Assembly (NCBI GenBank): GCA_014871385.1
Contig: CM026425.1
Coordinates: 15,063,990-15,127,989 of the forward strand
From: Ceratodon purpureus
Taxonomy: Eukaryota > Streptophyta > Bryopsida > Pseudoditrichales > Ditrichaceae
Direction: 5' to 3'
DNA: 64,000 bases
The position numbers were made by a program, and so were the translations under genes. The notes under the pieces were generated by a model. The model made no database searches, had not been told where the DNA came from, and saw only the letters and a list, made by a program, of their open reading frames with translations. Shown in pieces: positions 24,701 through 59,537 of this stretch. Position 1 is the first letter of the stretch. Each line of letters begins with the position of its first letter.

Positions 24701-26713
24701 GAGAACAGGTGTTGCTTTGTTGGCTGTGGTAGTGAATCTCAGTGTGGTTTGTTGGGTGATGAGAGGAGCCTATCATCGCGAGGAAGCAATGTACTTTGGT
24801 TGTCAGTTTTTTCTGTGTTCTGTACGCTTTAGCATATCATATTTTCATGTTTGGAGCTCTGAGGTGCTCCGGAAATCCTCCGTCATCATTGACGTCCTTT
24901 GAGTCATTTTTCTGCAGGCAAGGGCATTTAAGCTGGACCTAGACGAAGCCAATGCGAAGCTGACGAAGGTAATGGAGTCGGAGAGGAACATGTCGGCTTC
25001 CATGGCATCTTTGCGAGCGGAAGTGACAAATGCACGTGCAGAGATAGAGCATGTGAGAGAGGAGGGGGAAGCTGCGCTGGTGGAGAAAGAGGAGCAAATC
25101 GAAATGGAGATGACTCAGATGAGGGCGGAATGGGAGGCAGCTGTATCAGAAGAGGGGAAGCTTAAGGAGAAGGTTACGCAGTTAACTGACGCTTTGGCCA
25201 AGGTTTGTTGGGTTCACTTTTCACTAGCACAACCTATGTTTCTAGGATGCAATTGGATTCATGTATCTTTATATAAGATGTAGGGATGCAAAGCGCCGTT
25301 GTAAAGCGTCAGCAAGTTTCACCAATGATATAGGTGGTGCATTTCTCGATTGGAATCTGTTTATCTTGAACCTCATCTTTGTTGATTCGTGTGATTCGTG
25401 GGATGCCGAGCATCAACTGATTGAATTGCTTGTTGGACATGAAAACAGCTGACGGATGAAACCGAGGGACTGAAGACTTCTTCAGCCTTAGCAAAAGAGG
25501 AAGCAGCAACTGCAAAACAACAGCTGGAGCAATCGAGGTCTCACATTGAGACAATAGAATCCAAGCTGCAGGCAGCCCTTCTGGAAGTGGAGGTTGTGAA
25601 AGCAAGCGAAGAAAGTGCTCTCTCACAGGTCAGTCGTGAGCTCATTTCCTGCTACTTTCTGAGATGGCATGCTCTTGATCGAGCATGGTATACATGCGTG
25701 ACGTTCGATGATAGACCTGCACATTGTGATGACGTGTCTCTAGATGATGGCATGGTCGTATTGAACCCGCAATGCAGGCTCGTTATTGAAGGCTTCCGTT
25801 TATACTTCAGACAGCTGGGTGTTGAGGTGATTTTCCAGGTGTTGAGTAAGGAAGTAGAGGGTACCATAGGATCTGGTAAGCAGCAGGCATGTGTTCAGAG
25901 TTCGCTCTGGCGATTTGGTACAGTGTATGACTAGAAACTTACGTGATGATTGGCCATGTCTCGCAGGCGAAGTTCACTCCACATAATCCTGATGGAGAGG
26001 CAGAGGTGAAGGAGCCTGGAGCTGAGGTTACAATCCCTCACGAGGAGTACCAATCTTTGACAAGAAAGGCACGTGAGGTGGAAGAATTGGCTAACAAGCG
26101 GGTTGCCATGGCGATGGCACAGGTGATGTCTCGTCACATGGTGAAGGAGTCAGTTAAACTGCAGTCTTTTTAGTTTTCAACTTGTGCAAGATCGTGATTG
26201 TGAATCTGATGTGACAAATGTGGGAATTGACATGGGCAGGTAGAGGCAGCTAAAGCGGGCGAGAAAGAGATGCAGAGCAAGTTGGAGTTGGCGAGGAAAG
26301 ACATTGAAGCTAGTCGCGCTGATCTGAGGGAAGCTACGAAGAAACGCGAAGACGCTGAGGCAGCGAAGTCTGCGGTGGAGGGGATGCTTCGTAACCAAAG
26401 GGGAGAGCGCAGGCACCAGGCATACAACGGTTACAACGGGGTCCCTCCCATGGGAAGCCCCAACAATGGAGGGGATCGGCAGGTCTACATGGTAAGCCCA
26501 GCGTCGGGCAACTCACAGAATAGCAGCCCATTGCACCCGACATTCTCATTCCCTACGTTTTCGAGCCCGAGCTCGCAGGACAAGTCCACCAGTGAGTCGC
26601 TTGCGGAGGTTCTGGCAACGAAATTGCCATCGGAGGAGAAGCAGAGGAAGGCCAGATTCTCGTCCAAGATTGGGTCATATTTTGGGAAGAAAAAAGATTC
26701 GGGGTCAAAGTAA
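21788..26713 (+). CDS. WEB family (DUF827) coiled-coil protein, 8 exons, about 1,137 aa
   Basis: Exons: 21788-21976, 22101-22392, 22694-23817, 23945-24658, 24918-25202, 25449-25628, 25967-26122, 26240-26713. All introns are GT-AG and phases agree at every joint (phase 1 after exon 2, phase 0 elsewhere). Residues 7-25 read EIDLSAPFSSVKAAVSMFG, the N-terminal signature of the WEB/PMI2 family, and residues in exon 7 read LTRKAREVEELANKR, its C-terminal signature. Nearly everything between (about 64-1030) is heptad-rich coiled coil, with repeated SSTEL..A.EEI..LQ units in exon 3. The tail is Ser/Pro-rich and ends in a basic KIGSYFGKKK segment. Family members in Arabidopsis (WEB1, PMI2) act in the cytosol in light-driven chloroplast movement by stabilising cortical actin on chloroplasts; the role here is inferred. 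It is longer than typical members because of the extended coil. Confidence 0.88.
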
Positions 26714-30381: not shown

Positions 30382-33300
30382 ATGATGTCCTCCCAGCAGC
30401 GCAATAAATCGACCTCCTCCTCACACATGGAGGTCGACTTCTTGAATCTTTGCAAGACTATCGTAGAGGATCTTGCGAGGGGTGACAACTTGCTCAACCA
30501 GCGACAATGCCAGGATCTGGCATCCAAGCTTTCCAGTACTGCTCAGAACGTCGAAGAGCTTGTGTCAAGCCTTGAAGGATCTTGCCAATTCTTCCGACCC
30601 GCTCTGGAGAACTTGTATCGCTACTTTGAGAAGGCCAAGGTGCTTGTGAGCAAGTGTGGGGACCAAGACTGGTGTGCGGCAGCTGTCTTTCAGAGTCAGA
30701 ATGAGAACGCATTCCGAGACATTCTATTGGACGTGGGCTTATGCTACAATGCGATTTATGAGCAGGCGAAAAGGAAGAGCGCTGAAGGGATTGTCCTGCC
30801 GCATGATCTTCGGCAACCTTCTGTGTTTGAGCCAGCATCGGACAGTGATGTTGACGCCGACAAAGAAGACCTTCTGAAAAGGTTGGATGATCTAGCCAAT
30901 GGACACTCTGACATCAAAGGATGGGATAAATGGATATCAGGGAGGGGAGCCCAAATGCAGAGTTTAGCAAAGTACTTGCTGGTGAAGATGGACTGCACGT
31001 CTAAAGAACCTCAAGCAGATATCTTAAATTCGTTTAGTGCAATGTTGTGGACAAAGGCTTCTGAGCCATCAGGAACATGGGGATGGCCACACTTTCTTGG
31101 TGCTGGAGCAGGTGCTAATGGTGTATGTCGCACAACATGGCTTGGGATTCCCTGCGCAAAGAAGGAGTTTCATGGGCAAGAATCCGAGACTTTCTTTCTG
31201 AAAGAAGCAGGCATATTGGCACACTTGAAGCACCCGTGTATTGTCAATCTGATTTGCTGCGGCAATGGCCTGAAGAAAGGTGATCGCTTCATTGCTATGG
31301 AGCTCATGGAGAAGAGCTTGTTTCACTTGATTGTGGAGCAGAAGGGTGTGCGTTTCTCACTCCCTGTGGCAGTTGACATGATGGTGCAAATAGCACGTGG
31401 TGTGTGCTATTTGCATGATCGAGGTGTTGCACATCGTGATCTGAAACCACAGAATGTGGTTGTCAGCAGACTGATATGTCCCCATCTTTCTGAGCACTAT
31501 TATTCTGTGAAACTGGTGGATTTTGGGATGTCGAAGACCAAAGTGGAGGTGTCCAAGTCCAACACTATGACTGCGGCGGGTATAGGCACTACACGGTATA
31601 GAGCACCTGAGGTCTTTCCAGAGGCTTATCGGAGTGGTACAGGAAAGGCAACTTGGTTCAAAGCGGATGTATATAGCTTCGCTATGACCTGCGTACATCT
31701 CTTGTCTTTAAAGAGTCCATTTGAAGAGATGCAGAGTACGGGTGCGTTGTATGAGAAGCTGGGGAAAGGAGAGAGGCCGGAACTTCCTGATGACTGTCCG
31801 AAAGAGTTGGTGGGGCTTTTGAAGAAGTGTTGGAGTATCAGACCGGGCTCGAGACCGTCTTTTATGCAAATATGCGTAGAGTTGGAGAAGCTCAGGCATG
31901 GATTTTTGAGTGGATATGGAGGTGCAAGGGAAGGCGTACAAGACAATATAGTGGATATGAGCGCGGGTTTTGATTTCATTGAAGGAAAGGTGGACAAGCA
32001 GTCTGCACTCCATGCATCGCTATTGGATAGCATTGTTGAAGAGGAAGTGGTACATGACCTGATACATAATGGCGATTTGAGAACTCCATTATTTGATTTG
32101 TTTTTTAGCATTATTGGCACACAATTATTCATTGAATGGATAGATTGCTTTCGGGTGCACACTGTTTGATAACATGTTTCTGGAATTGTTATTCAGAGTC
32201 ATTGTCCTAGTGCGGAAACGTTGTTGTTAAAGAATTTGTGTTTTTATTTTTGTTTTTTTGATTTCCTTTAAGGGACTGCTTGACGATGGAGAGCTACCGA
32301 TTCTTGCGTGTACTGCTGGCCATGCACTTGAGTTTCTACCTCAAGTTCCATCATCCACTGGGCGACCTTATTGCAACCTTTGTTCGGAGGATCTTGTTGA
32401 CGAACATTATTGCTGTGTTGCTTGCGATTTCGATGCACATGCGCATTGTTCAAGACTAGAGATTGAGGTGAACGTGTTTTTCCACAAACATCCTCTTCAG
32501 CTTCTCATTCGAAGTTATTACAATGGTGATCCGGATGCCGTATGCTGCTTTTGCGAGGAATCGCTGCAACACAGTGAATGGGTGTACAGGTGTGAGCAGT
32601 GTGATTTCGATGTGCATGCTCACTGCACTAAGCACCCTGAAGAGATCATGCGGAAGAGCCATCATCGACACCGTCTGACTCTCATACAATGTCCCCCTGG
32701 CAAGTGCTTGACATGTGCATGCTGCAATGGTGAAGTAAGAGGGAACTCATGGCGCTACACTTGCACTGAAAGGCTGTGTACTGTGGATGTGCATCCAACT
32801 TGTGTAGTAAATTCTTCTTTTCCCCTTTGTGTGTTTGACTATGCACATCAGCTTTGTCGCCGTCCGAAAAGGGGTTTCTACTGCGGCAGTTGTGGTGGAC
32901 TCGGATATTCACGGTATTACCATTGTGACGGTTGTGATGTGAACCTACATCTGCATTGCGCATTTGACATGGAAGAAAAAGACAACTGGATTGAGGTGTA
33001 TGAGCAGTTCAAGGCGCAGTACATGACGAAGGGGGACCATACTCAGATATCGGTAGACACGATATCACGCCTTCTGGACGAACTGCGTGTAAGCGACAAA
33101 TTGGGGGGAAGTTCATTATCGGCCTCAGGGCCAGAACCAGGTGCTGTGATAGATCCATACTGGTGCTGATTGAAATTAGCTGGCAGATAGTTCAGTTCGT
33201 CTTGAATTGCGATTCTAAACTTGTTAGGAATTTGTTAGATGCAAGTCGTGCTTCACGGGGTTAGGTTCAAACGTGAGTGGATGCATGCTTTTGTGCGTTG

Positions 33301-34615
33301 ATGTTGTTAATCGGGTAAAATTGACCCGTAGTATCTGCAATCATAGATTTGATAGAAGTGAGTGTAAGTTTTATAACTAACGGTCTGCAGAGTTTCACAA
33401 CTGGATACACTATTACTTGGTGCAAATGCAAGTGATGTCCAAATGGAGAATTAAGCAGGCCTAAGGGCTTGAAGTTTTGTTTCATGTAAAATTCCAGCAG
33501 TGTTTGTGTAAAAGTATATTTGTGTTGAATGCGAGCATTTTGGGCTTGGTTAGTGTTAGCTAGTGTTAGCCTGAGTGGAAACATGTGCTATTCTAATTTG
33601 AGGGATGAGGCGGTCAAACCAACGCATTTATGTTCTGTTGCTTGCAGTAGTGGAAGGGTCTACTACGAGGGTGCAGCCAACTATCCGAAGGCTTGCATCA
33701 CGCGACACACCTGATTTGGATGCAATCGACTTTGATGATGCGGATCTTCGCAAGAAGGTTGTCGCAGAGACTGCAGAACGGAAGGCCAAGAGAATGAGAG
33801 CCAAGGGTGGGAGGCTGGAGTTGAAGGGGAAGTATCTGGAGATGCTTGGGGACTTGGAGAGTACTGTATTGGATTTACAAAGTTCTGAGAGAGTGTTACT
33901 AGGTGATGGGGAGGCTGTGGAGAAAGTGCGGAAATGGAAGGATGTTGTGGAGGATGAAATGGCCACGCTAGTGCAATCGAGGGTGCGCCAATTCTGTCGC
34001 ACTGGTGTGTTCTATTTGAAGAGATCTAAGGAGAGAGGAGTATTTGAATTGTTGACGAGTCTTCGAGCGGACGTGGTGGACGTGGGGTTGATGTTTCTTT
34101 GCGAGGAGCCTGGTCATGAGCACTGGGTGGAGGGTTCTTCTGGTCTAACCCTGAATGGAGCACTTGGTGAGGAGCGAGAGCGGATATTGAAGCCGTTGCT
34201 TGGTCGTGGGCTAGAGGTTGTTGCCAAGGCCATGAGTGCATCTTTAGGAGAGCTTAGTCCATTAGACTCAGTGACATTGCCTATTTTAGGGATACGTCGG
34301 CGATGGGATTTGGGGGCCATTGATGTGGAGAAGCATGGCAAGGTGTCAAAAGACAAAGAGAATGTGGAAGAGATAAAGCGGGCAAGCGATTTGGCAGCAG
34401 AGCACCTTCTAAGACGCCTTGAGAAACGGGGAGTTAACATATTTAAATCTTATGGTTTGCTTCGCATTCGGTACAAAGTAAGCGAGGAGGGTGACATTCC
34501 ACGGTACACACGAGGATCAGTGGCTTGGTTGTGCAAGGACCACGTGAACCGTGGTCTTAAAGATGGCATCCTTGAGTCTTATCCTCTGAAATATTACAAT
34601 CCTGAGCTGAATTAG
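30382..34615 (+). CDS. HeLo-like (DUF1221) kinase with four DC1 modules and unknown C-terminal domain, 3 exons, about 1,167 aa
   Basis: Exons 30382-32049, 32273-33140 and 33648-34615; GT-AG introns with matching phases (0 then 1). Residues about 18-130 resemble DUF1221, the HeLo-like helical bundle of plant MLKL-like proteins (NQRQC at 39-43, then QDWCAAAVFQSQN). The kinase domain spans about 236-505 and looks catalytically complete: Gly-rich loop GAGAGANGV (240-248), Lys260, Glu275, HRDLKPQN (351-358), DFG (380-382), APE (408-410). Exon 2 holds four Cys/His DC1 modules (about 568-617, 625-677, 685-735, 745-788). Exon 3 (846-1167) is a helical, charged domain I do not recognise. A cytosolic immune or cell-death kinase is plausible by family, but is inferred. 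If intron 1 is retained, translation stops at 32,169 and leaves only HeLo-kinase. The exon joints need transcript support. Confidence 0.8.
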
Positions 34616-39540: not shown

Positions 39541-41669
39541 AAAGGATAGTGTGGAGTCACAAAAAGAAGGCACATTTGTGTGAAGGTGTTATTTCGCGCA
39601 AACTTGCTTTATTTCTTTGTCTTAATAGAGCCATAGACTATTTCTTGTAATATTGAATTAGATCCTAATACTTTAACTAATTCTATAACAACCATAAATC
39701 TTGATATTTTTAGATTATGTGAGCTTAAAAATAATCCTTGATAACAAATGATGAAGAATCATTCATATTCAGAACACATTATGCATTAAAATCCAATCCA
39801 CCAAAATAATGGAGCTATTCCATCACCAAGAAACTTCAATCAATTGAGTAAACTTTGACTTTGTTTATTCTACATTCTTTGTTATATTTGAAATAATTTT
39901 TTATACCTCAAAATAACAGTCAATACTAGATATTGAATACCTTAAATTATTAGACACCTCAATATGTATAGAGGCCTATATATTGGATATATTTGCTAGG
40001 GTTTTAAACACTTATTATCAGGCACCTCAATTAATAAAATACTAGAAGGTATTAAACAATTTTGGTCTTCAAACACCTCGAATTGTTAGCATCCTCAAGT
40101 TATCAACAACTTCACTTATTAGACACATCAAGATTATGAAGTGTGTAAGTTATGTCACATATTTTTACTTATCAAATTCTTCAATCATTGGTCACCCCAA
40201 GTTATTGCATATGATTATACTTTTTAAATTATTTCTTCATTTGTGTTTTTTTGGATTGATGGGCAAAGTTCCAATACATGAAAATAAACATGATTATATC
40301 ATATATTGGGCCAAAAGAACATTTTTGGGATAAGAATGAAGTTTCTTTAAGGATCTAATGTTAAATACATGGTCCAATATTTTCTTCACAATCTTAGAAT
40401 TTAAAATTCTAATTATATATTTACTGTAGAAAATTTATCATAATTTACAACTATCATTATTATTATTGATTTGTATTTTACATAGAAAAGTTGTTTAAGT
40501 GGTTGAGGTATTCATTATTAAGTATATCTAATTCAATGAATCAATAATTATAACTTTAAAGCCCTATGTAACCGTAAATCAAGACTTCAATTTTAGCCTA
40601 CAAATTAATTCAAAATTGAAGATGCTATTCTTAGGTGTGTAATATAGTCAATTTCAGTGATGACTTAGTGTATTTCATGTGTCAAATGGAACCAAATTTG
40701 AAGATTTATTTGAAGGTAACTTCATTACCAAAATTATAGCATTTACTAAAATGTTATTCTTGTAACATTTGTCGTATTAGTATTGGTGAAATTAGTGCAT
40801 GCTTTTAGATATATTTATTGACACTTGGAAATTGAAGAGTTTATAGCAATCATATGCTTATACTACTAAACACTTCAACACTTATAAAAGGTGAAAAGGA
40901 ATTCAAGTACCACAAACATGAATAATCTTTCCATGATTGTGAAATAGGAGATAATAACTTTTATGTAATTAAATAACTAAAATACATAAACCAATGGATG
41001 ATAATAAAGGATGAAAACAAAAACATTCAGAGATGAAAATATATGAAAGAAATACTTCAATTCCATCTAAATAGGATAATACCATAACCTCATTTCCATC
41101 CAAATCAATACTTATTGAATATATTGAACAATAAATTATGTTTTTGAAGAATCTCTTAACACTTAATAATTGACACTTGCAAACTTGTATCTTCCAAATT
41201 TTTCCAAGGGACTCTTGAATCTTCTAAAACATAATTTGCAAATTTGAAATTTACTGATGTACTAGACATTTAAATCAAACTAAAATTTAATCTAAAATTC
41301 CACAATTCATCATTCTACAACACTATGCAGACCTTAACATAGCACTAGGATTCTCAATTTCTGTTTTTTGCTATCCACGTCTATGTAACTAAATCATCAC
41401 TCATATCAATTTCAAATTGAAGAGTTTTACATAATCTTCTTATTAGTTTCATCCGCCTCATTCATACCCGAAACCAATGCTTAGCCAGGAAATTACATGC
41501 ACTTGGGCAGCTCATAAAAATACAAAGTTGGAATCTGCAAAAAACATGTGGAACCAAATATGATTCAGAATCAATATGAGTTCCTCGCCTTCACTAATGC
41601 TATGTCACATACACAAGAGAAATTACGTCCAAATTATCTAAGTCATTGTTTCTCAACTTCGTCCTCTAA
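39541..41669. other. AT-rich duplicated intergenic DNA
   Basis: The part to about 40,890 is collinear with 62,680-64,000 in unit B; the rest has no counterpart because the window ends. A loose CACCTCAA-type motif recurs every few tens of bases around 39,945-40,130. No gene was recognised. Confidence 0.45.
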
Positions 41670-42480
41670 TTGGGTCGTGAGTTGTGAGGAGTTAGCCAGA
41701 TCTGCGATCATTGATTTGGTTCGTGTTCAACTGAAATGCCGTGGTAATGCTCACAGCTACTTCGGTGCAATCCTCGCTGTTAGCAAATTAGCCTTTCATG
41801 CGAGCGATGATCTTACATTGCTCAGTTATCGTATTTTCTCATTATGTATGACAGCCGTATTACTTGATCGGACAGAGGTCTTAACCTGCAGTGATCGTGT
41901 TGTTTCCGACACGGGTACAGAGAGTATCGTACTCTTGTAAGAGGAAGCCTTGGCGTGCTTCGAAATGTTTGGATTGGCGGAAGATGGAGTGAATCTTCAT
42001 CTGATTTTTGGGCGGCTTCGTGTTTGCCGCGAAGTCATTCTAGAGGTTTTGGTGTCGTGGTTGTGCAATCTGCATATAAGTCGCGGCTTGAAGCTTGATT
42101 TCTATCCTTTGAATAATTATGTAGGAGATGAATTAGGAGCGGTGGTTCCTTCTTTCTTGTGACACTGGAATATCGGTTTCGGGTTTCCCCCTTGTCGTTG
42201 TTGACGGTATCCCAGGCATAAGTTTATCCTCAGGCGTCCGTTTTGTGTAGTTTTCTGTTAAGTCAGGCAGATCCAGGCCTGCTATCTGCAGTTTAGATCA
42301 GCTCACCCCTGCTGCATTGGCATTTCAGCTTCTTTTTCGTCAGACATCTAGTACTGAGCTTTTTAAATGGGCTTATTACATTTGTTTGGTATAGAGTTTG
42401 ACAGACAGCAGTACTGCTGATGGTTGACATGCCTGTTAAGCTTCGTGAGTGGAGAAGGTAGTCACTTTTGAGGTTATTGG
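41670..42480 (+). other. Collapsed duplication unit X, kinase gene deleted
   Basis: Bases 41,670-41,845 match the upstream region of the unit A gene (29,145-29,325), and from 41,845 the match jumps to downstream sequence (35,115 onward), so about 5.8 kb containing the whole kinase gene is missing. A second smaller gap (about 280 bp) falls at about 41,966, and about 130 bp near 42,095-42,230 have no counterpart in A or B. Frames inside are remnants. Confidence 0.75.
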
Positions 42481-45516: not shown

Positions 45517-48500
45517 ATGATGTGGTCCCAGCCGCGAAAGCAATCGACATCCTCCTCACACAATGAGGTAGAGTTCTTGAATCTTTGTAAGACTATCGTA
45601 AAGGGACTTGCGAGGGGTGGAAACCTGCTCAACCAGCGACAATGCCAAGATCTGGCATCCAAGCTTTCCCGTACTGCTCAGAACGTTGGAGAGCTTGTGT
45701 TGAGCTGCGGCGGATCTCCTCCGCTCTTCCGACCCGCTCTGGAGGACTTGTATCGCTACTTTGAGAAGGCCAAGGTGCTTGTGCGGAAGTGTGGGGACCA
45801 AGACTGGTGTGCGGCAGCTGTCTTTCAGAGTCAGAATGAGAACGCATTCCGAGACATTCTATTGGACGTGGGCTTATGCTACAATGCGATTTATGAGCAG
45901 GCGAAGAGAAAGAGTGGTGACCGGATTGACCTGCCGCATGATCTTCGGCAATCTTCTGTGTTTGAGCCTGCACCGGACAGTGATGTTGATAGAGACAAAC
46001 AGGACCTTCTGAAAAGGTTAGATGAACAAGCCAATGGACACACGCTCCTCGAACGATGGAAATTACTGATATTAGGGTGGGGAGCTCAGAAGCAGCGACT
46101 AGCAGAATACTTGCTACTGAAGATGGAATGCACATCTAAAGAATCTAAAGCTAGTATTTTAAACACGTACAGCGCCATCTTGTTAAAAGAGGCATTTATG
46201 CCATCAGGAACATGGGGAAACTCAACCTTTCTTGGAGGTGGATCAGGTGCTGATGGAGTCTGTCGCACGTCATGGCTTGGGATTTCTTGTGCAAAGAAGG
46301 TGTTTCATGGGGAATATTCCGAGAGTTTCTTTCTGAAAGAAGCAGGCATATTGGCACACCTGAAGCATCCGTGTATTGTCAATATGATTTGCTGTGGCAA
46401 TGGCCTGAAGAAAGGGGAGCGCTTCATTGCTTTGGAGCTCATGGAGAAGAGCCTTTTTGACCTGATTGAGGAGCAGAAGGAGCAGAAGGGTGTTCCTTTC
46501 TCACTCCCTGTGGCAGTTGACATGATGGTGCAAATAGCACGGGGTGTGTGCTATTTGCATGATCGAGGTGTTGCACATCGTGATCTGAAACCACAGAATG
46601 TGGTTGTGAGCAGACTGACCTCTCCCAATCTTTCTGAGGATCATTTTTCTGTGAAGCTGGTTGATTTTGGGATATCGAAGACCAAAGTGGAGGTGTCCAA
46701 GTCGAACACTATGACTGCAGGTGGTATAGGCACAACACGGTATAGGGCACCTGAGGTCTTTCCACAAGCTCATCGGAGTGGTACACGGAAGGCAAATTGG
46801 TTCAAAGCGGATGTATATAGCTTCGCTATGACCTGCGCACATCTCTTGTCTTTGAAGAGACCATTTGAAGAGTTGCAGAATGATTTACGTCCGTTGCACG
46901 AGAAGCTGGTGAAAGGAGAGAGGCCGAAACTTCCTGTTGGCTCTCCGAAAGAGTTGGTGGAGCTTTTGGAGAAGTGTTGGAATTTCATACCGGGCTCAAG
47001 GCCGTTGTTTGAGCAAATATGCGTAGAGTTGGAGAAGTTCAGACATGCACTACTGAGGGGATATGGAGGTGCAAGGGAAGGGGTACAAGACATTATAGCG
47101 GATTTGAGTGCTGGTTTTGATTTCATCGGAAGAGAGGTGGACAAGCAGTCTGCAATCCATGCACCGCTTGTAAATATTATTGATGAAGAAGATGAGGTAC
47201 TTGACTCTGGAGCTTGATGGCAATTTCAGAGTACCACCATCATGTTTTATAGCATGGCTTGCATAAAATTGATCTAACTTTTTTGTATACTGAGTTTAGA
47301 TGCACACTGTGTTCTTACATTTTTGTATGGTTTGCGTTTCGATGTCCAATGCATGTTCTATTGCAGAAAAGTTGTTGTAATAGAGTGTGTATGATTCATT
47401 CAGGAATTGCTTTATGATGGAGAGCTACCGTCACAAACTCAATTGAACATCTTAAAGCTATGCAAGACAAACGTCGAGGATCTTGCGAGGGGAGGAAACC
47501 TGCTCAACCAGCGACAATGCCAGGATCTGGCATCCAAGCTTTCCCGTACTGTTCAGAACGTTGGAGAGGTTGTGTCAAGCCTTGGAGGATCTTCTCCTCT
47601 CTTCCAACCCGCTCTGGAGAACTTGTACCGCTACTTTGAGAAGGCCAAGGTGCTTGTGAGCAAGTGTGGGGACGAAGACTGGTGTGCGGCAGCTGTCTTT
47701 CAGAGTCAGAATGAGAACGCATTCCGAGACATTCTATTGGACGTGGGTTTATGCTACAATGCGATTTATGAGCAGGCGAAGAGGAAGAGTGATGACCGGA
47801 TTGACCTGCCGCATGATCTTCGGCAATCTTCTGTGTTTGAGCCTGCATCGGACAGTGATGTTGACGCAGACAAACAGGACCTTCTTAAAAGGTTGGATGA
47901 TCTAGCGAATGGACACTCTGACATCAAAGGTTGCGATAAATGGATATCAGGGAGGGGAGCCCAAATGCAGAGTATAGCAAAGTACTTGCTGTTGAAGATG
48001 TACTGGACTTCTAAAGAACATCAAGCAGATATCTTAGATTCGTTTAGTGCAATGTTGTGGACGGAGGCTTCTGAGCCATCAGGGTCATGGGGACGGCCAC
48101 GCTTTCTTGGTGCGGGATCCGGTGCTAGTGGCGTCTGTTGCACAACATGGCATGGGATTCCCTGTGCAAAGAAGGTGTTCCATGGGCAAGATTCCGAGAC
48201 TTCCTTTATGAAAGAAGCAGGCATATTGGCACATTTGAAGCACCCGTGTATTGTCAATCTGATTTGCTGCGGCACTGGCCTGAAGAAAGGGGATTGCTTC
48301 ATTGCCATGGAGCTCATGGAGATGAGCCTCTTTGACCTGATTGAGGAGCAGAAGGGCGTGCGTTTCTCACTCCCTGTGGCAGTTGACATGATGATGCAAA
48401 TAGCACGGGGTGTGTGCTATTTGCATGATCGAGGTGTTGCACACCGTGATCTGAAACCACAGAATGTGGTTGTCAGCAGACTAATATGTCCCCATCTTTC

Positions 48501-51500
48501 TGAGGATCATTTTACTGTGAAGCTGGTGGATTTTGGGATGTCGAAGACGAAAGTGGAGGTGTCCAAGTCGAACACTATGACTGCGGCGGGTATAGGCACA
48601 ACAAGGTATAGGGCACCTGAGGTCTTTCCACAGGCTTATGGGAGTGGTACAGGGAAGGCAAATTGGTTCAAAGCGGATGTATATAGCTTCGCTATGACCT
48701 GCGCACATCTCTTGTCTTTGAAGAGTCCATTTGAAGAGTTGCAGAATGATTTACGTCCGTTGCACGAGAAGCTGGTGAAAGGAGAGAGGCCGGAACTTCC
48801 TGTTGACTGTCCGAAAGAGTTGGTGGGGCTTTTGGAGAAGTGTTGGAGTACGAGACCGGTCTCAAGACCGTCTTTTATGCAAACATGCGTAGAGTTGGAG
48901 AAGCTCAGGCATGCATTTTTTAGTGGACATGGAGGTGCAAGGGAAGGGGTACAAGACAATATAGTGGATATGAGTGCGGGTTTTGATTTCATCAAAGGAA
49001 AGGTGGACATGCAGTCTGCACCGCTAGTTGAAGAGGACGAGGTACACGACCTGATACATAGTGGCGATTTGAGAAAACCATACTAGTTTGATTTGGTTTT
49101 CAGCATCGTTGGCAATAGATTATTCACCGAATGGTCAGACTGCTTTTGGGTGTACACTGTTTGATAACATGTTTCTGGAATTGTTATTTAGAGTCATAGT
49201 CTTTTTGCGGAAACGTTGTTGTAGAAGAGTTTGTATTTTCATGTTTTAATTTTTAATTACCTTTTAGGGACTGCTTGACGCTGTTGAGCTTCCGATTCTG
49301 GCGTGTGCTGCTGGCCATGCACTTGAGTTTCTACCTCAAGTTCCATCATCGGCCAAATTTGGGCGCTATTGCAACTTTTGCTGGGAGGATATTGTAGACG
49401 AGCATTATCACTGTCGGTCTTGCGATTTCGATGCACATTCGCATTGTTCAAGACTAGAGATTAAGGTGAACGTGTTTTTTCACTATCATCCTCTTCAGCT
49501 TCTTGTTCGAAGTTATTACAATGGTGATCCGGATGCCGTATGCTGCTTTTGCTTGGAATCGCTGCAACACAGTGAATGGGTGTACAGGTGTGAGCAGTGT
49601 GATTTCGATGTGCATGCTCACTGCACCAAGCACCCTAAAGAAATCATGCATAGGAGCGAGCATCCACACCGTCTGACTCTCATACCATGTCCGCCTGGCA
49701 AGTACTTGATATGTGCATGGTGCAATGGTGAAGTAAGAGGGAACACTTGGCGCTACACTTGCACTGAAAGGCCGTGTACTTTGGATGCGCATCCATCTTG
49801 TGTAGTCAATTTTCTCAGTGGTCCCCTTTGTGTATTTGACAAAGGACATCGGTTTTCTCTAATCCGCGAGAGACGGGGTTTCTTCTGCGGCAGTTGTGGT
49901 GGATTCGGATATTCTTGGTATTACCATTGTGACGGCTGCAATGTAAACATACATCTGGATTGCGCATATGACATGGAAGAAGAAGACAACTGGATTGAGG
50001 TGTATGAGCAGTTCAAGGCGCAGTACATGACAGAGGGGGACCTTACTCAGATATCGGTAGACACGATATCACGCCTTCTGGACGAACTGCGTGTAAGCGA
50101 CAGGTTGGGGGGAAGTTCATTATCGGCCTCAAGGCCAAAACCAGGTGCTGTGATTGGTCCACACGGGTGCTGATTGAAATTGGCTGGCAGATAGTTCAGT
50201 TCGTCTTGAATTGCGAATCTTAACTTGTTATGATTTTTTTAGATGCAAAGTCGTGCTTCACGAGGTTAGGTTCAAACGTGAGTGGATGCACGCTTTTGTG
50301 TGTTGATGTTGATATACGGGTAAAATTGACCCGTATTATCTGCAATCATAGATGTGATGGAAGTGAATGTAAGTTAATAACTAACAGTCTGCAAAATTTC
50401 ACAGCTGCACACACCAGTACTTGGTCTAAATTCGAGTGATGTCCAAATGGAGAATTAACCAGGCTAAGGACTTGAAGTTTTGTTTCATGTAAAATTCCAG
50501 CAGTGTTTGTGGAAAAGTATATTTGTGTTTTATGCGAGCATTTTCGGCTTGGTTAGTATTAGCTAGTGTTAGCCTGAGTGAAAACGTGTGCCATTCTAAT
50601 TTGAGGGATGAGGCAGTCAAACTAACACCTGTTTGTTCTTTTGCTTGCAGTGGTGGAAGGGTCTGCTGCGAGGGTGCAGCCAACCATCCGAAGGGTTGCA
50701 TCATGCGACACACCTGATGTGGATGCAATCGACTTTGATGATGCGGATCTTCGCAAAAAGATTGTCGCAGAGACTGCAGGACGGAAGGCCAAGAGAATGA
50801 GAGCCAAGGCTGGGAGGTTGGAGTTGAAGGGGAAGTATCTGGAAATGCTTGGGGACTTGGAGAGTACTGTTGGAAAGTACTTGGAGAGTATCTGGAAATG
50901 GTTGGGGATATTAGATCTACAAAGTTCTAAGAGAGTGTTACTAGGTGATGGAGAGGCTCTGCAGAAAGTGCGGAAATGCAAGGATGTTGTGGAGGATGAA
51001 ATGGCCACGCTTGTGCAATCGAGGGTGCGCCAATTCGGTCGCACTGGTGTGTTCTTTTTGGACAGAACTAAGGAGAGAGGAGTATTGGAATTGTTGACTA
51101 GTCTTCAAGCGGACATGGTGGACGTGAGGTTGATGTTTCTTTGCGAGGAGCCTGGTCATGAGCACAATGTGAAGGGTTCTTTTTCTGGAGCCTTCGATGG
51201 AGCACTTGGTGAGGAGCGAGAGGGGATATTGAAGCCGTTGCTTGCTCGTGGGCTAGAGGTTGTTGCCAAGACCATGAGTGCATCTTTAGGAGAGCTAAGT
51301 CCATTAGACTCATTGACATTGCCTATTTTAGGGTCACGTTGGCGATGGGATTTGGGGGCCATTGATGTGGAGAAGCATGGCAAGGTGTCAAAAGACAAAG
51401 AAAATGTGGAAGAGTTAAAGCGGGCAAAGGATTTGGGGGCAGAGTGGCTTTTAAGAGACTTAGAGATATGGGAAGGTATGGACATATATAGGAGTTATGG

Positions 51501-51660
51501 TTTGCTTCGCATTCGGTACAAAGTAACTGAAGAGGGTGACATTCCACGGTACACACGAGGTTCCGTGGCTTGGTTGTGCAAGGATCACGTGTACCGTGGT
51601 CTTAAAGATGGCATCCTTGAGTCTTATCCTCTGAAATATTACAATCCTCAACTGAATTAG
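45517..51660 (+). CDS. Fused tandem-kinase gene: HeLo-kinase, HeLo-kinase, DC1 x4, unknown C-terminal domain; 4 exons, about 1,734 aa
   Basis: Exons 45517-47196, 47404-49041, 49268-50144 and 50651-51660; all introns are GT-AG and phases match (0, 0, 1). Cassette 1 (1-560) and cassette 2 (561-1106) each carry a HeLo-like domain with NQRQC and a full kinase domain with HRDLKPQN (about 354 and 907) and DFG (about 383 and 936). DC1 modules follow (about 1118-1340), then the C-terminal domain (1399-1734). Cassette 2 has no start codon: after the acceptor it reads ELLYDGELP, the first codons of a DC1 exon (GLLDDGELP in unit A), and then enters the HeLo domain. This fits unequal crossing-over between two gene copies. 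If intron 1 is retained, a stop at 47,217 gives a single HeLo-kinase. Cassette 2 is closer to the unit A kinase than cassette 1 is. Transcript proof is lacking. Confidence 0.72.
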
Positions 51661-54288: not shown

Positions 54289-54416
54289 TGTTGATACAAG
54301 AGGAAAACGGCTCAAGAGAGAGCGAGTGCAGTAGAGAGAACGGTATTTGTACAGAGTGCCGGCGGCAGGGATTAGGGTTAACCTAAATTTAGAAAACCTA
54401 GTTACTTTGTTCAACA
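54289..54416 (-). repeat. 3' LTR of the Copia fossil (128 bp)
   Basis: It begins TGTTGATACAAGAGG and ends GTTCAACA as written on the plus strand. It is nearly identical to 59,407-59,532. Confidence 0.95.
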
Positions 54417-54425
54417 CCCCCTCTC
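54417..54425 (-). other. Polypurine tract of the Copia fossil
   Basis: The minus strand reads GAGAGGGGG directly before the 3' LTR, the expected position of the plus-strand primer. Confidence 0.8.
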
Positions 54426-54478
54426 AAACCGGGACGGGAGTTTCGGGGTGGATTTTCCTGTGGTATTCTATCTGTACA

Positions 54479-55043
54479 ATGTCTCTCGTGTCGGAGAAGA
54501 TGCGCCGTGGGGACGTGGAGTACACCTGGCGCGATTACTTGTCGTTTTTGTTTCTGTCAGTGCTTGGTCTGATCGGGTGCGCTTGCGGAAGTGTTTACAG
54601 GATGGTCGACGCAGCAGTGACACATCGATTGAGGCGTGTCGTGGATGCTCGTGAGATCGGAGCAGAGGAGATGGAGCAAGAGGAACCGAGAGTACTTCGT
54701 AGGAGCGAGTCAAGTACGTTGGGTCCTTCAATTGTTGCTTTGGGTTGAGTTGCTTTCTTGTTATTGTGGAGCTTGATTCTAATGCGTGGAGAATTGGCTT
54801 GCAGGCTGGACGCGAGGAGCAGTAGGCGATGAAGAGTTCCAGGTCCTGCATGGGAGAGTTCGGACCCTCGGTACTCGGAAGGAGTTTAGGGTTTCGCGTA
54901 AGTTGTACGCAGTTAGGAGAGGTAGGAAGATAGGTATATTTTCTACTTGGGAGGATTGTAGAGAGCAGGTTGACAGGTTCCGGGGCGCTGAATTCAGATC
55001 CTTCGGGACAGTGGATGAAGCTAGAGTATACCTGCAGGGTTAG
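54479..55043 (+). other. Antisense gene-like frame inside the Copia fossil: membrane segment plus RNase H1 hybrid-binding domain
   Basis: The frame runs on the plus strand, opposite to the element, between the RNase H region and the 3' LTR. The first part (from ATG at 54,479 to about 54,713) holds a hydrophobic stretch, LSFLFLSVLGLIGCACGSVY, then an acidic, Arg-rich segment. The second part (about 54,805-55,043) carries YAVRRGRKIGIFSTWEDC followed by QVDRF.GAEF.SF and EA.VYL, the pattern of the RNase H1 N-terminal hybrid-binding (Cauli_VI/viroplasmin-like) domain, which binds RNA-DNA hybrids. The interval between the parts has plausible GT-AG intron borders (about 90 bp). It could be a captured host fragment or an accessory gene kept by this lineage. 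Expression is unknown. Confidence 0.6.
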
Positions 55044-56822
55044 GGTTTCGCCATTGAGCAGGGACAGACTAGAAAGGTTTAGAGATTTTCTATGTTGTTC
55101 GAACTTGATTCTTCCTAGTGGTTTTGTCAGTATATCAGCCGGTTGGAGAGACGTATCAATAAACTTGATTTCAATTTCCTCCTCTACGACTCTTTCCCGG
55201 ATGAAATGGTGGTGAATCTCTATATGTTTACTCCTGGCATGAAACACTGGATTTTTGGCCAATTTAAAGGCTGATTGATTGTCGCAATGGATTTGTAGAA
55301 CAGGTGCTAAATCGGTACTAATCTGGCTTGTTTTGTGGTGTACAGGAACTGGGCGCTGGGGAAGAACCTTGATTTCCTTGAGGAGTCTTGATATCCACAC
55401 GGATTCTTGGACACCATTGGAGAGCGCGCGGTACTCAGACTCCATAGAGGAGCGAGAAATGGTGAGTTGTTTCTTACTCTGCCAGCTAACGGGGGTTCCA
55501 GAGATATTGAAAACATATGCTCCGATGCTCTTCCGTGTGTTTGGACAGGATCCCCAGTCCGCATCAATGTGTTCTGAGAGAAGCAAGGGTTTGTCGTAAT
55601 GGTAAAGTAGGCCTAGGTCAAATGTTTGCATTAGATATCTTAGAATGTGCGAAGCAGAATCTAGATGCTTTTGCTGAGGCTTGGACATAAAAGAGGCAAC
55701 CCGGTTGACTGCGTAGGTGATATCAGGCCTTGTAATTGTAAGGAAAATTAATTTCCCGACTAACTGTGAATAATGCGTGGGATCTACAGGGAGAGTACCA
55801 GTTTCGGAGGCGAGGATTTCACCAGCAGGCAAGGGGACTTTAACAGGGGATAAACCGGTTGGGAGGAACTCACGAAGAATTGATAGGGCATACTGAGACT
55901 GGTGAAGCAGAATTCCATTGGGTAAGTACTCGAAAATCACGCCCAAATATTTCTTCACTTTTCCTAAATCCGTTATGTCAAATGTTTCATGTAGAAAAGT
56001 CTTTATCCAAAGAATGAGAGTGGGAGAGCTTCCAGTTATGAACAGATTATCTACGTATAGCATGACCAGTAGGAGTTCCTGGTTTTTGTGTAGGAAATAG
56101 AGATTAGGGTCGTAGGAGCTGCGTACCAGTCCTACTGTTCGGAGAGAATTGTCTATCCTATCGTACCAGGCTCGAGGTGACTGCTTCAAACCGTATAGGG
56201 ATTTCAGAAGATAACATACTTTGTTTGTCTGACCAGGTTCTTCGAATCCAGGAGGTTGTGTCATATAGACATCCTCCTTTAGGTTGCCATGAAGGAAGGC
56301 AGTGCGGACGTCCATATGATGGACGTCCCACTTCTTTGCTGCAGCAAGAGCCACAGTGGTCCTGATAGTGACCCACTTGATTACTGGAGCAAACGTCTAC
56401 TGGTAATCAAATCCAGGTCGTTGTTCAAAACCGCGCGCGACTAGGCGCGCTTTAAGGATTGGAGGAGTATTCGGTTGACCAGGCTTCGAGGTGTAGACCC
56501 AGCAGCAGCTAATCGGTTTTACACCCAGAGGTAAGCGTTCTAATCTCCATGTTTGGTTTTTGTATATACTGTTCATCTCAGCCTGCATAGCTTTAAGCCA
56601 TCCTGAGTGTAGCATTGCCTGGGAAAAAGTGGGAATTTCTAGTTCTAATTCGTGGGATAAAATTGTAGGTAAAGGACTCGATGGAGCAGGAAGAGCGCAG
56701 CAGTCGGGAAAGTCCTGAGAAAGGTAGATGTAGTAATCTCCCAGCTTAATGCTGGGAGCCCGTGTCCTGGAGGATCTGCGGGGCTGTGGAACTGATGGTT
56801 CCAGACTCGGATTTTCTGACAT
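54950..56822 (-). other. Copia fossil: reverse transcriptase and RNase H region
   Basis: Family-typical pieces on the minus strand include GWLKAMQAEMNSI, KARLVARGFEQ, MDVRTAFLHGNL, KSLYGLKQSPRAWY and, in RNase H, SMESEYRALSNGVQE and DILTKPLG. This is the last third of the Copia polyprotein. It is fossil sequence and no intact product is claimed. Confidence 0.9.
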
Positions 56823-56873
56823 TGTGGTATGGTGGCTTACAGAGGAGATCTGCCGAAGAGAAGGAGATGGTGA

Positions 56874-57974
56874 CTACGGGGACGGAGAAGCAATCTGAGG
56901 TAAGTCTATCGGATTTAATTGCCCCATTGGTTTTGGTTGGCTCGGTTCTTCAAGAGTAGGAGTTGGTGTTATCAGGGGATCTAGGAACTCAGGGACATAG
57001 GATTCTGGAGTAGGATTTAGTGTAAACAAGGTCTCCTCGAACGTCACATCTCTGCTGATAAGAATTCTGCGTGTAGCAGGATTGTAGCACCTGTATGCTT
57101 TCAAGGACTCATCATAGCCAACTAGTAGGGTAGGTATAGCCTTGGGGTCAAGTTTGGTTCGCTTTGCTGCAGGGATATGGCAGAAAGCTAAACAACCAAG
57201 AACTCGTAAATGAGAAATGTTAGGTTTCTGACCTCTGTATTTTTCTTCTGGTGTTTGTAGGTTGAGAGCTCGACAAGGAAGGCGATTTTGAATGTAATTG
57301 ACTGCTCTCGCAATCTCGTCCCAGAGAAATCGTGGTATGCGTGTACCATACGCCACGCTCCGAATGCCCTCCAGCAGGTATCTATTCCTCCTCTCAGCAA
57401 TTCCATTTTGTTGTGGAGAGTACCCGGAAGTGAGTTGATGGTGTATGCCATGGGTTTCGCAGAATTGGATGAAGTCAGTGGAGAGATATTCCCCCCCTCG
57501 GTCGGAACGAAGCCCCTGAATTTTTAAGGTAGGAGTTTCAACCAGTCTTTTGAACTGAATGAAGTAGCTTAAAGTTTGTGATTTATTTTGCAGAAAATAA
57601 ATCCATGTTTTGCGGGAAAAGTCATCAATAAATGTCAAAATATACTTACAGATGGTTGCGGTTGGAGTATTCAGGGGACCGCAAAGGTCACTATGAATAA
57701 GCTGGAGTGGATGCGTGGTAAAAGTAGAGCGCATTTTGGGAAAGGGTTGCCGATGACTCTTTCTTAATACGCAGCTGGTACAGTGTTGCTTGAGGTAAGG
57801 GAGTTTAGGAACTCGATTTACCAATCCTCGACTTGTCAAATGGTAAAGATTCTGCTGGTTGGTATGAGCCAACCTTTGATGCCATAACTGGATAGTTTCG
57901 GTAGAAACTTTTGTTTGCTGAGTAGCAGATAGAATTGGCGTGGTAGTTAGAGGTTTAGCTGATAAGCGGTACAA
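56874..57974 (-). other. Copia fossil: integrase region
   Basis: An HHCC zinc-binding motif (LWHQRLAHTNQQNL ... CTSCVLRKSH) is followed by the catalytic core (HSDLCGPL, FIDDFSRKTWIYFL, LRSDRGGEYLS, SPQQNGIAERRNR), in the usual Copia position between protease and reverse transcriptase. Confidence 0.92.
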
Positions 57975-58070
57975 CTTGGTCCGTGGGTCTCGGTTAGCTG
58001 TAAGGAAAATTCTGCTTGGAGAATGGGAGTCATAGATGATACATTTGTTCGAAGTGAATAGTACGCTATG

Positions 58071-59336
58071 TCATAAATCTGCAAATCTTCCCACTGAGAG
58101 TAGATTGGTTTTTACACCCGGGACATAAAGAATATCGGATACAATCTTTACTTCATTGTCCAAGAAGCTAACATTGCCCTTGTGGTGTACAGGGAGGACC
58201 TGACCAGCGGCCGTGCGGATACTAGAGATCGAAGACTGAGAAGTATCTGTAAGAAGAGTAGAATTCCCGGTGACATGGGAGCTTGCTCCGGAGTCAAGGA
58301 ACCAGGGCTCCTCTTCCGAAGTGAAGGCTGTCATGCATGCATTCAACGCGGCCTGCTCATCCTCCTCGGATTCTTCACCAGGTAAGCTTTCGATGGTAGC
58401 ATAGGAGGTTGACTGGTTTGTCTTCATGCATGAGAGTTGTATCTGGAGGTCGCGAATCTGACGTTGAATCTTTGTGGCCTCGCAGTCTAACTCGGTGTGA
58501 GTTGTGCTGCCACATCCCTTGCAGGTGCGCGGATTGGAGAAAATTCTGCCGCGGCCTCTGCCGCCTCTTCCACCAGAACGCCCTGCTCGGCCATCTCGAT
58601 TCGAAGGATAGCGGTACTGACTGAAGTTCTTCTGAGCGTAAAGAACTTCCTCTGAGTCACGGCTTGTGTTTCGTGAGCTCTCCTCATGAAGCATGGAGCC
58701 CTGGAGTTCGGAGAATGAAGGGCTGCGGTCTCGGCTCTGCTGGATCGCCCTAAAGGTACTCCAACTCTTGGGTAAGCTGGCTAAAACTTGGTCAACCAAG
58801 TCTTCGTCCTGTATCGTCACACCTAGGCTTGCAAGTTGTATAACTATAGAGTTGACGTCCTGGAGGTGAGAGTCCAAGGTTTTACCCTCTGACATCCGTA
58901 GTGAGTGCAATCTTTCCTTCAGTGCTAGACGACGTGATGGAGATTGTATATCATACATTTGCTTAAGCTTGTTCCAAATAACTAATGGATCTGTCAAATG
59001 CAAGATGTGAAGGATAATATGGTCCTTAACTGTGGCCATGATGATTCTGCAGGCGCGAATCTTGCTGGCCGCGTCATCTGTGGGTGGAGGTGATGCCGTA
59101 TTGACGGTGGCAGGTGCTCCTGCTCCTGCTGGTGTAGCGCCCGTGACAGAGGTTGAAGTTGCCCCCGAAGTGGCGCTGGAGCTGCTCGTGGCAGGCGTGG
59201 AAACAAGAGGTATTTCGATAAACCTCCATAAGTTCTCCTGCATTAGGACCATCTTTGTCCTATAGCTCCACAAAAGATAATTAGCCTGTCCATCTAGTTT
59301 AGCAGAGTCGGATACATCTCTGAGAGTTGAATCCAT
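58071..59336 (-). other. Copia fossil: gag and protease region
   Basis: It starts with a gag/UBN2-type N-terminus (KLDGQANYLLWSYRTKM), carries an Arg/Gly-rich stretch and a CCHC knuckle (CKGCGSTTHTELDC), and ends with the aspartic protease motif WFLDSGASSHVTG. The order and motifs are those of plant Copia elements. Confidence 0.92.
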
Positions 59337-59394
59337 CCTGAGAAAACTAGGTCAGGCAATATAGAGAGTCGTGTAAATCTCTTTTAGCAGATAC

Positions 59395-59406
59395 GCTCTG
59401 ATACCA
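59395..59406 (-). other. Primer-binding site (initiator tRNA-Met) of the Copia fossil
   Basis: The minus strand reads TGGTATCAGAGC immediately after the 5' LTR. This is complementary to the 3' end of plant initiator tRNA-Met and is the usual Copia primer site. Confidence 0.9.
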
Positions 59407-59532
59407 TGTTGATACAAGAGGAAAACGGCTCAAGAGAGCGAGTGCATTAGAGAGAACGGTATTTGTTCAGAGTGCCGGCGGCAGGGATTAGGGTTAACCT
59501 AAATTTAGAAAACCTAATTACTTTGTTCAACA
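59407..59532 (-). repeat. 5' LTR of the Copia fossil (126 bp)
   Basis: It has the same TG...CA ends as 54,289-54,416 and is nearly identical to it. Confidence 0.95.
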
Positions 59533-59537
59533 CGAGG
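59533..59537. repeat. Target-site duplication, right (CGAGG)
   Basis: Matches 54,284-54,288. Removing the element and one copy restores the unit A sequence around 37,237. Confidence 0.9.

Follow-up and report, generated by a model that had tools for sequence, protein, structure and literature searches.

A predicted tandem HeLo-kinase gene in the moss Ceratodon purpureus and the possible origin of its hybrid second exon

A stretch of 64,000 nucleotides from the moss Ceratodon purpureus (positions 15063990–15127989 of contig C5, hereafter the window) contains a locus that raises the question of whether two kinase domains, each preceded by a HeLo-like domain, belong to one gene, and how the second of them came to be there. 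In cereals, disease-resistance genes encode tandem kinase proteins, and plant MLKL-type proteins tie a kinase fold to cell death. The locus, designated gene B (45517–51660, plus strand; positions are those of the window unless a contig is given), was compared with its neighbours and with the whole genome (362.5 Mb in 151 contigs). Judged from sequence comparison, gene B is probably a single four-exon gene that encodes a tandem kinase protein and that originated within a single-cassette array, where the opening of a DC1 exon became linked to the beginning of a HeLo-kinase exon.

Anatomy of gene B and its hybrid second exon

The predicted model has an open frame of 1,734 amino acids, in which a HeLo-kinase cassette (B1) is followed by another (B2), four DC1 stretches and a C-terminal domain. 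Exon 1 (45517–47196) holds B1 with its ATG, a HeLo-like domain, a brace and a kinase whose catalytic motifs were checked. Exon 2 begins with a short DC1-exon-like part (47404–47430), and its remainder (47431–49041) encodes the start-less HeLo-like domain and the kinase of B2. The DC1 (C1_2) stretches are encoded by exon 3 (49268–50144), whose end was set by a consensus splice site and the frame, and the C-terminal domain by exon 4 (50651–51660). Introns 1 (47197–47403) and 2 (49042–49267) are GT–AG introns in phase 0, and intron 3 (50145–50650; CAG/GTGCTG ... TTGCTTGCAG, phase 1) is one pick among the 17 in-frame options listed.

The B1 donor GT is at 47197 and the B2 acceptor AG ends at 47403; likewise, the B2 donor GT is at 49042 and the DC1 acceptor AG ends at 49267. 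Because B1 and B2 comprise whole numbers of codons (560 and 546, respectively), both junctions flanking B2 are in phase 0, and the frame is continuous through the two introns, which places two kinase domains in one predicted polypeptide. The donor sequence (GAG or GTG/GTAC) is kept in all five array cassettes, and intron 1 is related to the kinase–DC1 intron of the array. An earlier note on this DNA had proposed two complete cassettes joined by a GT–AG intron in matching phase ahead of one DC1 block and one C-terminal domain. The splice positions proved exact and exons 3 and 4 lie in open frame, but the word complete does not apply to B2, in which roughly 13 codons at the start of the HeLo exon are missing. 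A transcript that retains intron 1 meets a stop at the seventh codon past the donor (47217) and would give an alternative product consisting of the first HeLo-kinase cassette only.

The start of exon 2, GAATTGCTTTATGATGGAGAGCTACCG, aligns with the DC1-exon start GGACTGCTTGACGATGGAGAGCTACCG of the single-cassette neighbour designated paralogue A, and then enters the HeLo exon. In translation, B2 opens with ELLYDGELP, compared with GLLDDGELP in the three single-cassette genes of the array and GLLDAVELP in the DC1 exon of gene B itself. The stretch 47218–47433 scored 41, 39 and 42 against the intron plus DC1 start of the array genes A, D and E (500 shuffles reached at most 32, 29 and 32, respectively), and did not match the regions upstream of the HeLo starts of the same three genes (scores 17, 17 and 15). 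The first in-frame ATG of B2 is codon 188 (47965), with none earlier, and upstream of the B2 acceptor only three codons are open in its frame. Consequently, translation of the HeLo part of B2 would require an exon further upstream or initiation at a codon other than ATG. These observations agree with the earlier proposal that exon 2 is a hybrid, in which the opening codons of a DC1 exon precede the body of a kinase exon and the HeLo domain is entered without a start codon.

Domain identity and coding constraint

A profile of the cassettes searched against the PDB gave 6lba (E = 2e-43) and 6ka4 (E = 6.7e-40) as the top two matches, followed by one EGFR entry and RIPK1 chains, and the kinase fold is thus nearest to MLKL and RIPK. 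The depositors named 6lba and 6ka4 “Protein kinase family protein” and “F22L4.1 protein”, respectively; we take them to be AtMLKL3 and AtMLKL2. A second profile was built from the N-terminal regions of 28 of the 30 loci L025–L054, leaving out L036 (a near copy of L034) and L048 (which contains stops), and it also found 6lba first (E = 4.7e-4, residues 23–141, NQRQC in common). At E ≤0.1, MLKL_N matched 19 of the 28 members (best 2.6e-5), RPW8 14 (best 1.9e-4), DUF7032 seven (best 0.021) and DUF1221 one (0.001), and weak single-sequence matches to MLKL_N, RPW8 and DUF1221 were not taken as proof alone. The DUF1221 model itself gave no match in the genome, a negative that carries no weight, as the controls were silent too. 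With 6lba as the top PDB match of both profiles, the HeLo-like and kinase identities suggested earlier were upheld, and at the sequence level the N-terminal region is judged to be homologous to the HeLo domain of MLKL.

The kinases of B1 and B2 both keep the glycine loop, CAKK, KEAG, HRDLKPQN, VDFG and APE. C1_2 (PF03107) matched gene B in four stretches with 92 bits against a cut-off of 26. The C-terminal domain had no match in Pfam or NCBIfam, and its best PDB match was not significant (E = 0.078). NB-ARC was absent from the Pfam scans of gene B and, for the array, from the 121 matches listed (121 of 311 candidates scored). A scan of viral contigs gave 61 pattern matches and no relative.

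Neither B1 nor B2 contains a stop or a frameshift, and the frame remains open through exons 3 and 4. All nine internal indels found on aligning the exons have lengths divisible by three (with one gap specific to A probably counted twice), whereas 36 of the 46 noncoding indels do not. The DNA identity of B1 and B2 is 86%; an assembly artefact or doubled copy was ruled out by this difference at 14% of nucleotides. The HeLo part of B2 before codon 188 has seven silent and four replacement lineage-specific changes (omega 0.20, p = 0.0097, or 0.019 with kappa 4), and a three-sequence version gave a silent to replacement ratio of 11:11 (p = 0.016). This start-less part looks to be under constraint. 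For B2 overall, the counts are 15 silent and 22 replacement changes (p = 0.034, or 0.082 with kappa 4). Among the single-cassette genes, A is constrained (15 silent, 12 replacement), and D (19:40) and E (13:35) are not significantly constrained overall, with a ratio of 7:28 in the HeLo part of D. We read the high replacement rates as the fast evolution of an immune-type family. In a three-cassette comparison, 50 of the lineage changes of B1, 13 of them silent and 37 replacements, fall within the 70 codon columns of its brace (46042–46251). Such an excess may stem from rapid evolution of this segment or from a tract derived from a more remote paralogue.

The tandem array and the origin of the double cassette

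A tblastn search of the window and 80 kb on either side found four full genes in one orientation (A, B, D and E), of which only B has two cassettes. Paralogue A occupies 30382–34615 on the plus strand (exons 30382–32049, 32273–33140 and 33648–34615), and D and E lie at 68553–72797 and 80765–84985 in window coordinates continued beyond the window. Between A and B, a relic of an array unit (41602–42478, plus strand) consists of upstream-flank homology (41602–41768) that runs into 3′-flank homology (41833–42478) without a gene body. A copia-type long terminal repeat (LTR) retroelement (54289–59533, minus strand) with matches to RVT_2, integrase and copia gag sits in the 3′ flank of B, at a site where unit A has no interruption. 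Its LTRs of 127 and 129 bases are 96% identical, CGAGG is repeated on both sides, and in-frame stops break the frame. Elsewhere in the window, open frames at 22056–26713 encode coiled coils and gave one weak match, below the cut-off, to the WEMBL family, which takes its name from weak chloroplast movement under blue light.

The earlier note attributed the double cassette to unequal crossing-over, and part of this claim stood. The B1 intron is an outlier, 0.57–0.63 identical to those of the other four cassettes (0.72–0.83 among themselves), as is the B1 brace (0.775–0.82 to the others, 0.83–0.94 among the others), and the near 3′ flank of gene B is closest to A (0.917, compared with 0.85 to D and E). 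The same values argue against a rival account, in which one exon was duplicated in tandem within one gene and later gene conversion with array members blurred its kinship; so do the cassette site patterns, with 135 sites of the type A=B2, in excess within the brace and towards the end of the kinase, against 65 of B1=B2 and 64 of A=B1, and an unbroken series of 13 A=B2 sites (p = 0.01). In the trees, B2 clusters with A, D and E, weakly for DNA (63/70) and with 91/75 for protein. However, a sister relationship of B1 and B2, which an internal duplication would predict, is not rejected by the approximately unbiased (AU) test (p = 0.326), and the two share a run of 10 polymorphic sites in codon columns 452–464 (0/2000 permutations), although changes confined to A may explain it. 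The two cassettes of a second double locus on contig C5, described below, are indeed sisters (98/97). Furthermore, the high kinship of B to A is regional, because the identity of their 3′ flanks drops from 0.92–0.93 to 0.87–0.88 past 37.8 kb, and the 5′ flank of B (0.77–0.80 to A, D and E) is merely a weak outlier, because D and E themselves are only 0.79 identical. Neither the HeLo part nor the remainder of the kinase clearly sets B1 apart within the array, whose cassettes are, from their site patterns, mosaics. The weak 5′ flank, the mosaicism and the unrejected sister relationship thus leave crossing-over short of being established. Fusion of two diverged neighbours is mildly favoured over internal duplication by these comparisons, which do not separate the two, and the latter is a possible if somewhat doubtful account of the locus.

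Two further explanations concern whether gene B is one working gene at all. The locus might hold two transcription units, B1 being a short gene that ends at 47217 and B2 forming a separate gene with the DC1 and C-terminal parts, expressed either from 47965 or from an exon further upstream that is not seen. The early stop upon retention of intron 1 would suit this arrangement, which is nevertheless unlikely in view of the missing ATG before codon 188, the frame closed just upstream of the acceptor, the likeness of the preceding stretch to intron plus DC1 starts and not to the 5′ upstream regions of A, D and E, and the constraint on the start-less HeLo part. It is also improbable that gene B is a functionless, decaying by-product of recombination in the array. 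The omega of B1 is near 1, a neighbouring array unit is already a relic, and at the second double locus a DC1 match is missing and only the end of a DC1 exon is left, all as expected from decay. Yet stops are absent from both cassettes and from exons 3–4, the nine coding indels are in frame, both kinases keep their catalytic motifs, and high replacement rates are also found in the intact single genes D, in its HeLo part, and E.

Several results weigh against the interpretation of gene B as one gene for a tandem HeLo-kinase protein. Compared with the neighbouring genes, intron 1 has a shorter pyrimidine-rich tract. B1 overall has 25 silent and 70 replacement changes (omega 0.97, indistinguishable from neutral), and B2 after codon 188 has 8 and 18, respectively (omega 0.77, not significant). 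The constraint on B2 may in part be older than the fusion, and that on B1 may have been relaxed. High replacement rates are, however, not peculiar to gene B, and intact single genes of the array show them as well. Regarding the HeLo assignment, the second PDB match of the 28-member profile is 4hb1 (E = 0.0083), presumably a designed helical bundle, and for this reason the HeLo signal may partly be a general helix pattern. A three-member N-terminal profile had no match in the PDB, DUF7792, a family not named as HeLo, matched 14 of the 28 members (E ≤0.1; best 6.4e-5), and the HeLo-type Pfam matches were under the curated cut-offs in the first member, the one for which scores were shown.

For a four-exon gene born by an exon join, the following route is proposed. 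Within an array of single-cassette genes, recombination would have joined a DC1-exon start to a HeLo-kinase-exon start. Because the HeLo-kinase donor and the DC1 acceptor are both in phase 0, such a join, provided that the frame is kept, results in a middle exon that is in frame, and this boundary may allow the join to recur.

Other double-cassette loci and relation to known proteins

The genome was searched with the HeLo region (66 matches, E ≤0.01), the DC1 part (35 matches, E ≤1e-8) and the C-terminal domain (25 matches, E ≤0.01); kinase matches lie almost wholly on contigs C1–C13. The matches were grouped by position and strand, a procedure that misses diverged partners and counts fragments and distant relatives among the lone groups. 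HeLo-DC1-C-terminal is the commonest architecture (16 groups). HeLo-HeLo-DC1-C-terminal occurs twice (gene B and C12:11157966/11160154) and HeLo-HeLo-C-terminal once (C5:15626727/15628718). The remaining groups are HeLo-DC1 (2), DC1-C-terminal (2), HeLo alone (35), DC1 alone (9) and C-terminal alone (3). Among single-cassette genes, those at C5:2472178 and C3:12024676 are near-identical despite lying on different contigs, and their DC1 and C-terminal matches fall in 503-aa open frames.

Two double-cassette loci thus exist besides gene B, and their second exons also begin like DC1 exons. At the locus L033/L037 (C5:15626646–15630840), the first cassette has the donor GAG/GTAAGT, and the second open frame starts with DQSNRIDNVAIISC, similar to the DC1 starts DETIIDHVAILQC of L031 and DEAIDDHVAIIRC of L035. 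The 315 bases before the second HeLo start scored 145 against the intron plus DC1 start of L031 and 42 against that of L038 (shuffled maximum 37 and 0/500 in each case), barely matched that of L035 (33; shuffled maximum 36, 1/500), and matched neither that of L030 (23; 117/500) nor any of the four 5′ upstream regions (17–22). The second cassette here keeps its own ATG, which would allow it to start on its own, and it leads into an apparent last piece of a DC1 exon, with no DC1 match listed. At the third locus (L043, C12:11157966–11163788), where the second exon was read at its start, the first cassette is followed by AG and then by DLLDEREGLP and a short tandem repeat. Its second HeLo match and its DC1 match lie in open frames of equal length (913 aa), which, from this equal length, are taken to be probably one frame. 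The first kinase reads HRDLKPQH, with the catalytic-loop Asn changed.

A protein tree was calculated from 28 rows, namely all five cassettes of the array plus 23 other loci out of 25; L039 and L048, being short or broken, were left out. B1 and B2 fall in one clade (100/100) and L033/L037 in another, which disfavours a single old ancestral double gene. As read at the junctions, the breakpoint in gene B leads from DC1 codon 9 to approximately HeLo codon 14, and that at L033/L037 from approximately DC1 codon 14 to just before the HeLo ATG. As clades and breakpoints differ, two separate origins of the double cassette are well supported on sequence grounds, and a third, at the C12 locus, is probable, its independence being judged from its first cassette. 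We tentatively suggest that the common phase-0 boundary offers a standing route to tandem kinases, by which at least three joins in separate lineages (gene B, C5 at 15.627 Mb and C12 at 11.158 Mb) would have produced lineage-specific double HeLo-kinase cell-death proteins independently of the cereal tandem kinases.

Gene B can be regarded as a variant of two known kinds of protein, the plant MLKL-like kinases and the tandem kinase proteins. Plant MLKLs are described as conserved across seed plants (PMC9950082). Gene B has a HeLo-type region, a linker and a kinase-fold domain in the same order as the Arabidopsis structures 6lba and 6ka4, and differs from plant MLKLs in having two cassettes, DC1 modules and a C-terminal domain. 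The pseudokinase state of the AtMLKLs is not found in gene B, since both of its kinases keep catalytic motifs (HRDLKPQN and DFG, where the 6lba alignment has HGDLNPMN and GFG). Pm13, a disease-resistance gene of Aegilops and wheat, also joins a HeLo/MLKL_NTD domain to a kinase with the residues of an active kinase, but as described in the available text it comprises a single cassette without DC1 and belongs to the grass lineage (PMC10951266). The tandem kinase proteins WTK1/Yr15 and RPG1 have two kinase domains per polypeptide, as predicted for gene B, and acquired them via duplication or fusion (PMC6170490). As reported in the Yr15 survey, its 92 proteins pair a kinase with a pseudokinase and have no additional conserved domains, and one of them was selected from Physcomitrella patens; unlike these, gene B has HeLo-like and DC1 parts and two kinases with intact catalytic motifs (PMC6170490). 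Mosses, and Ceratodon above all, have large repertoires related to nucleotide-binding leucine-rich repeat (NLR) proteins, as reported in a 2024 study of NLR N-terminal domains that covers kinase-type NLRs (PMC11218826). Gene B resembles the protein-kinase-type NLRs as a moss protein of putative immune type with a kinase part (PMC11218826, PMC10952240) and differs from them in having no NB-ARC match by Pfam. HeLo and DC1 do not occur as terms in the main text of that study (PMC11218826), and the titles and abstract starts of the open-licence PMC literature searched describe no HeLo-kinase-DC1 or tandem HeLo-kinase protein.

By analogy with these relatives, gene B may have a role in immunity or cell death. 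Each HeLo bundle would be a membrane-acting or oligomerising part held by the brace and an active RIPK/MLKL-like kinase, and the DC1 modules and C-terminal domain may sense, recognise or dock. Phosphorylation of a partner or of its own brace by the kinase would then set the HeLo bundle free to approach membranes, in the manner proposed for MLKL-type proteins. The HeLo domain of B1, being N-terminal, would be the one freed upon activation and act as the executor. In B2, the N-terminus of the HeLo domain is internal; if a free N-terminal helix is needed, B2 may serve as a partner, scaffold or decoy.

A moss gene that unites the tandem kinase and MLKL ideas would show the exon join by which tandem kinases can arise outside flowering plants. 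The single-cassette A and the double-cassette B form a natural test pair for what a second cassette adds. Given that the same genome holds two more double loci and single-cassette relatives beside gene B, double-kinase proteins may have been built repeatedly in this moss.

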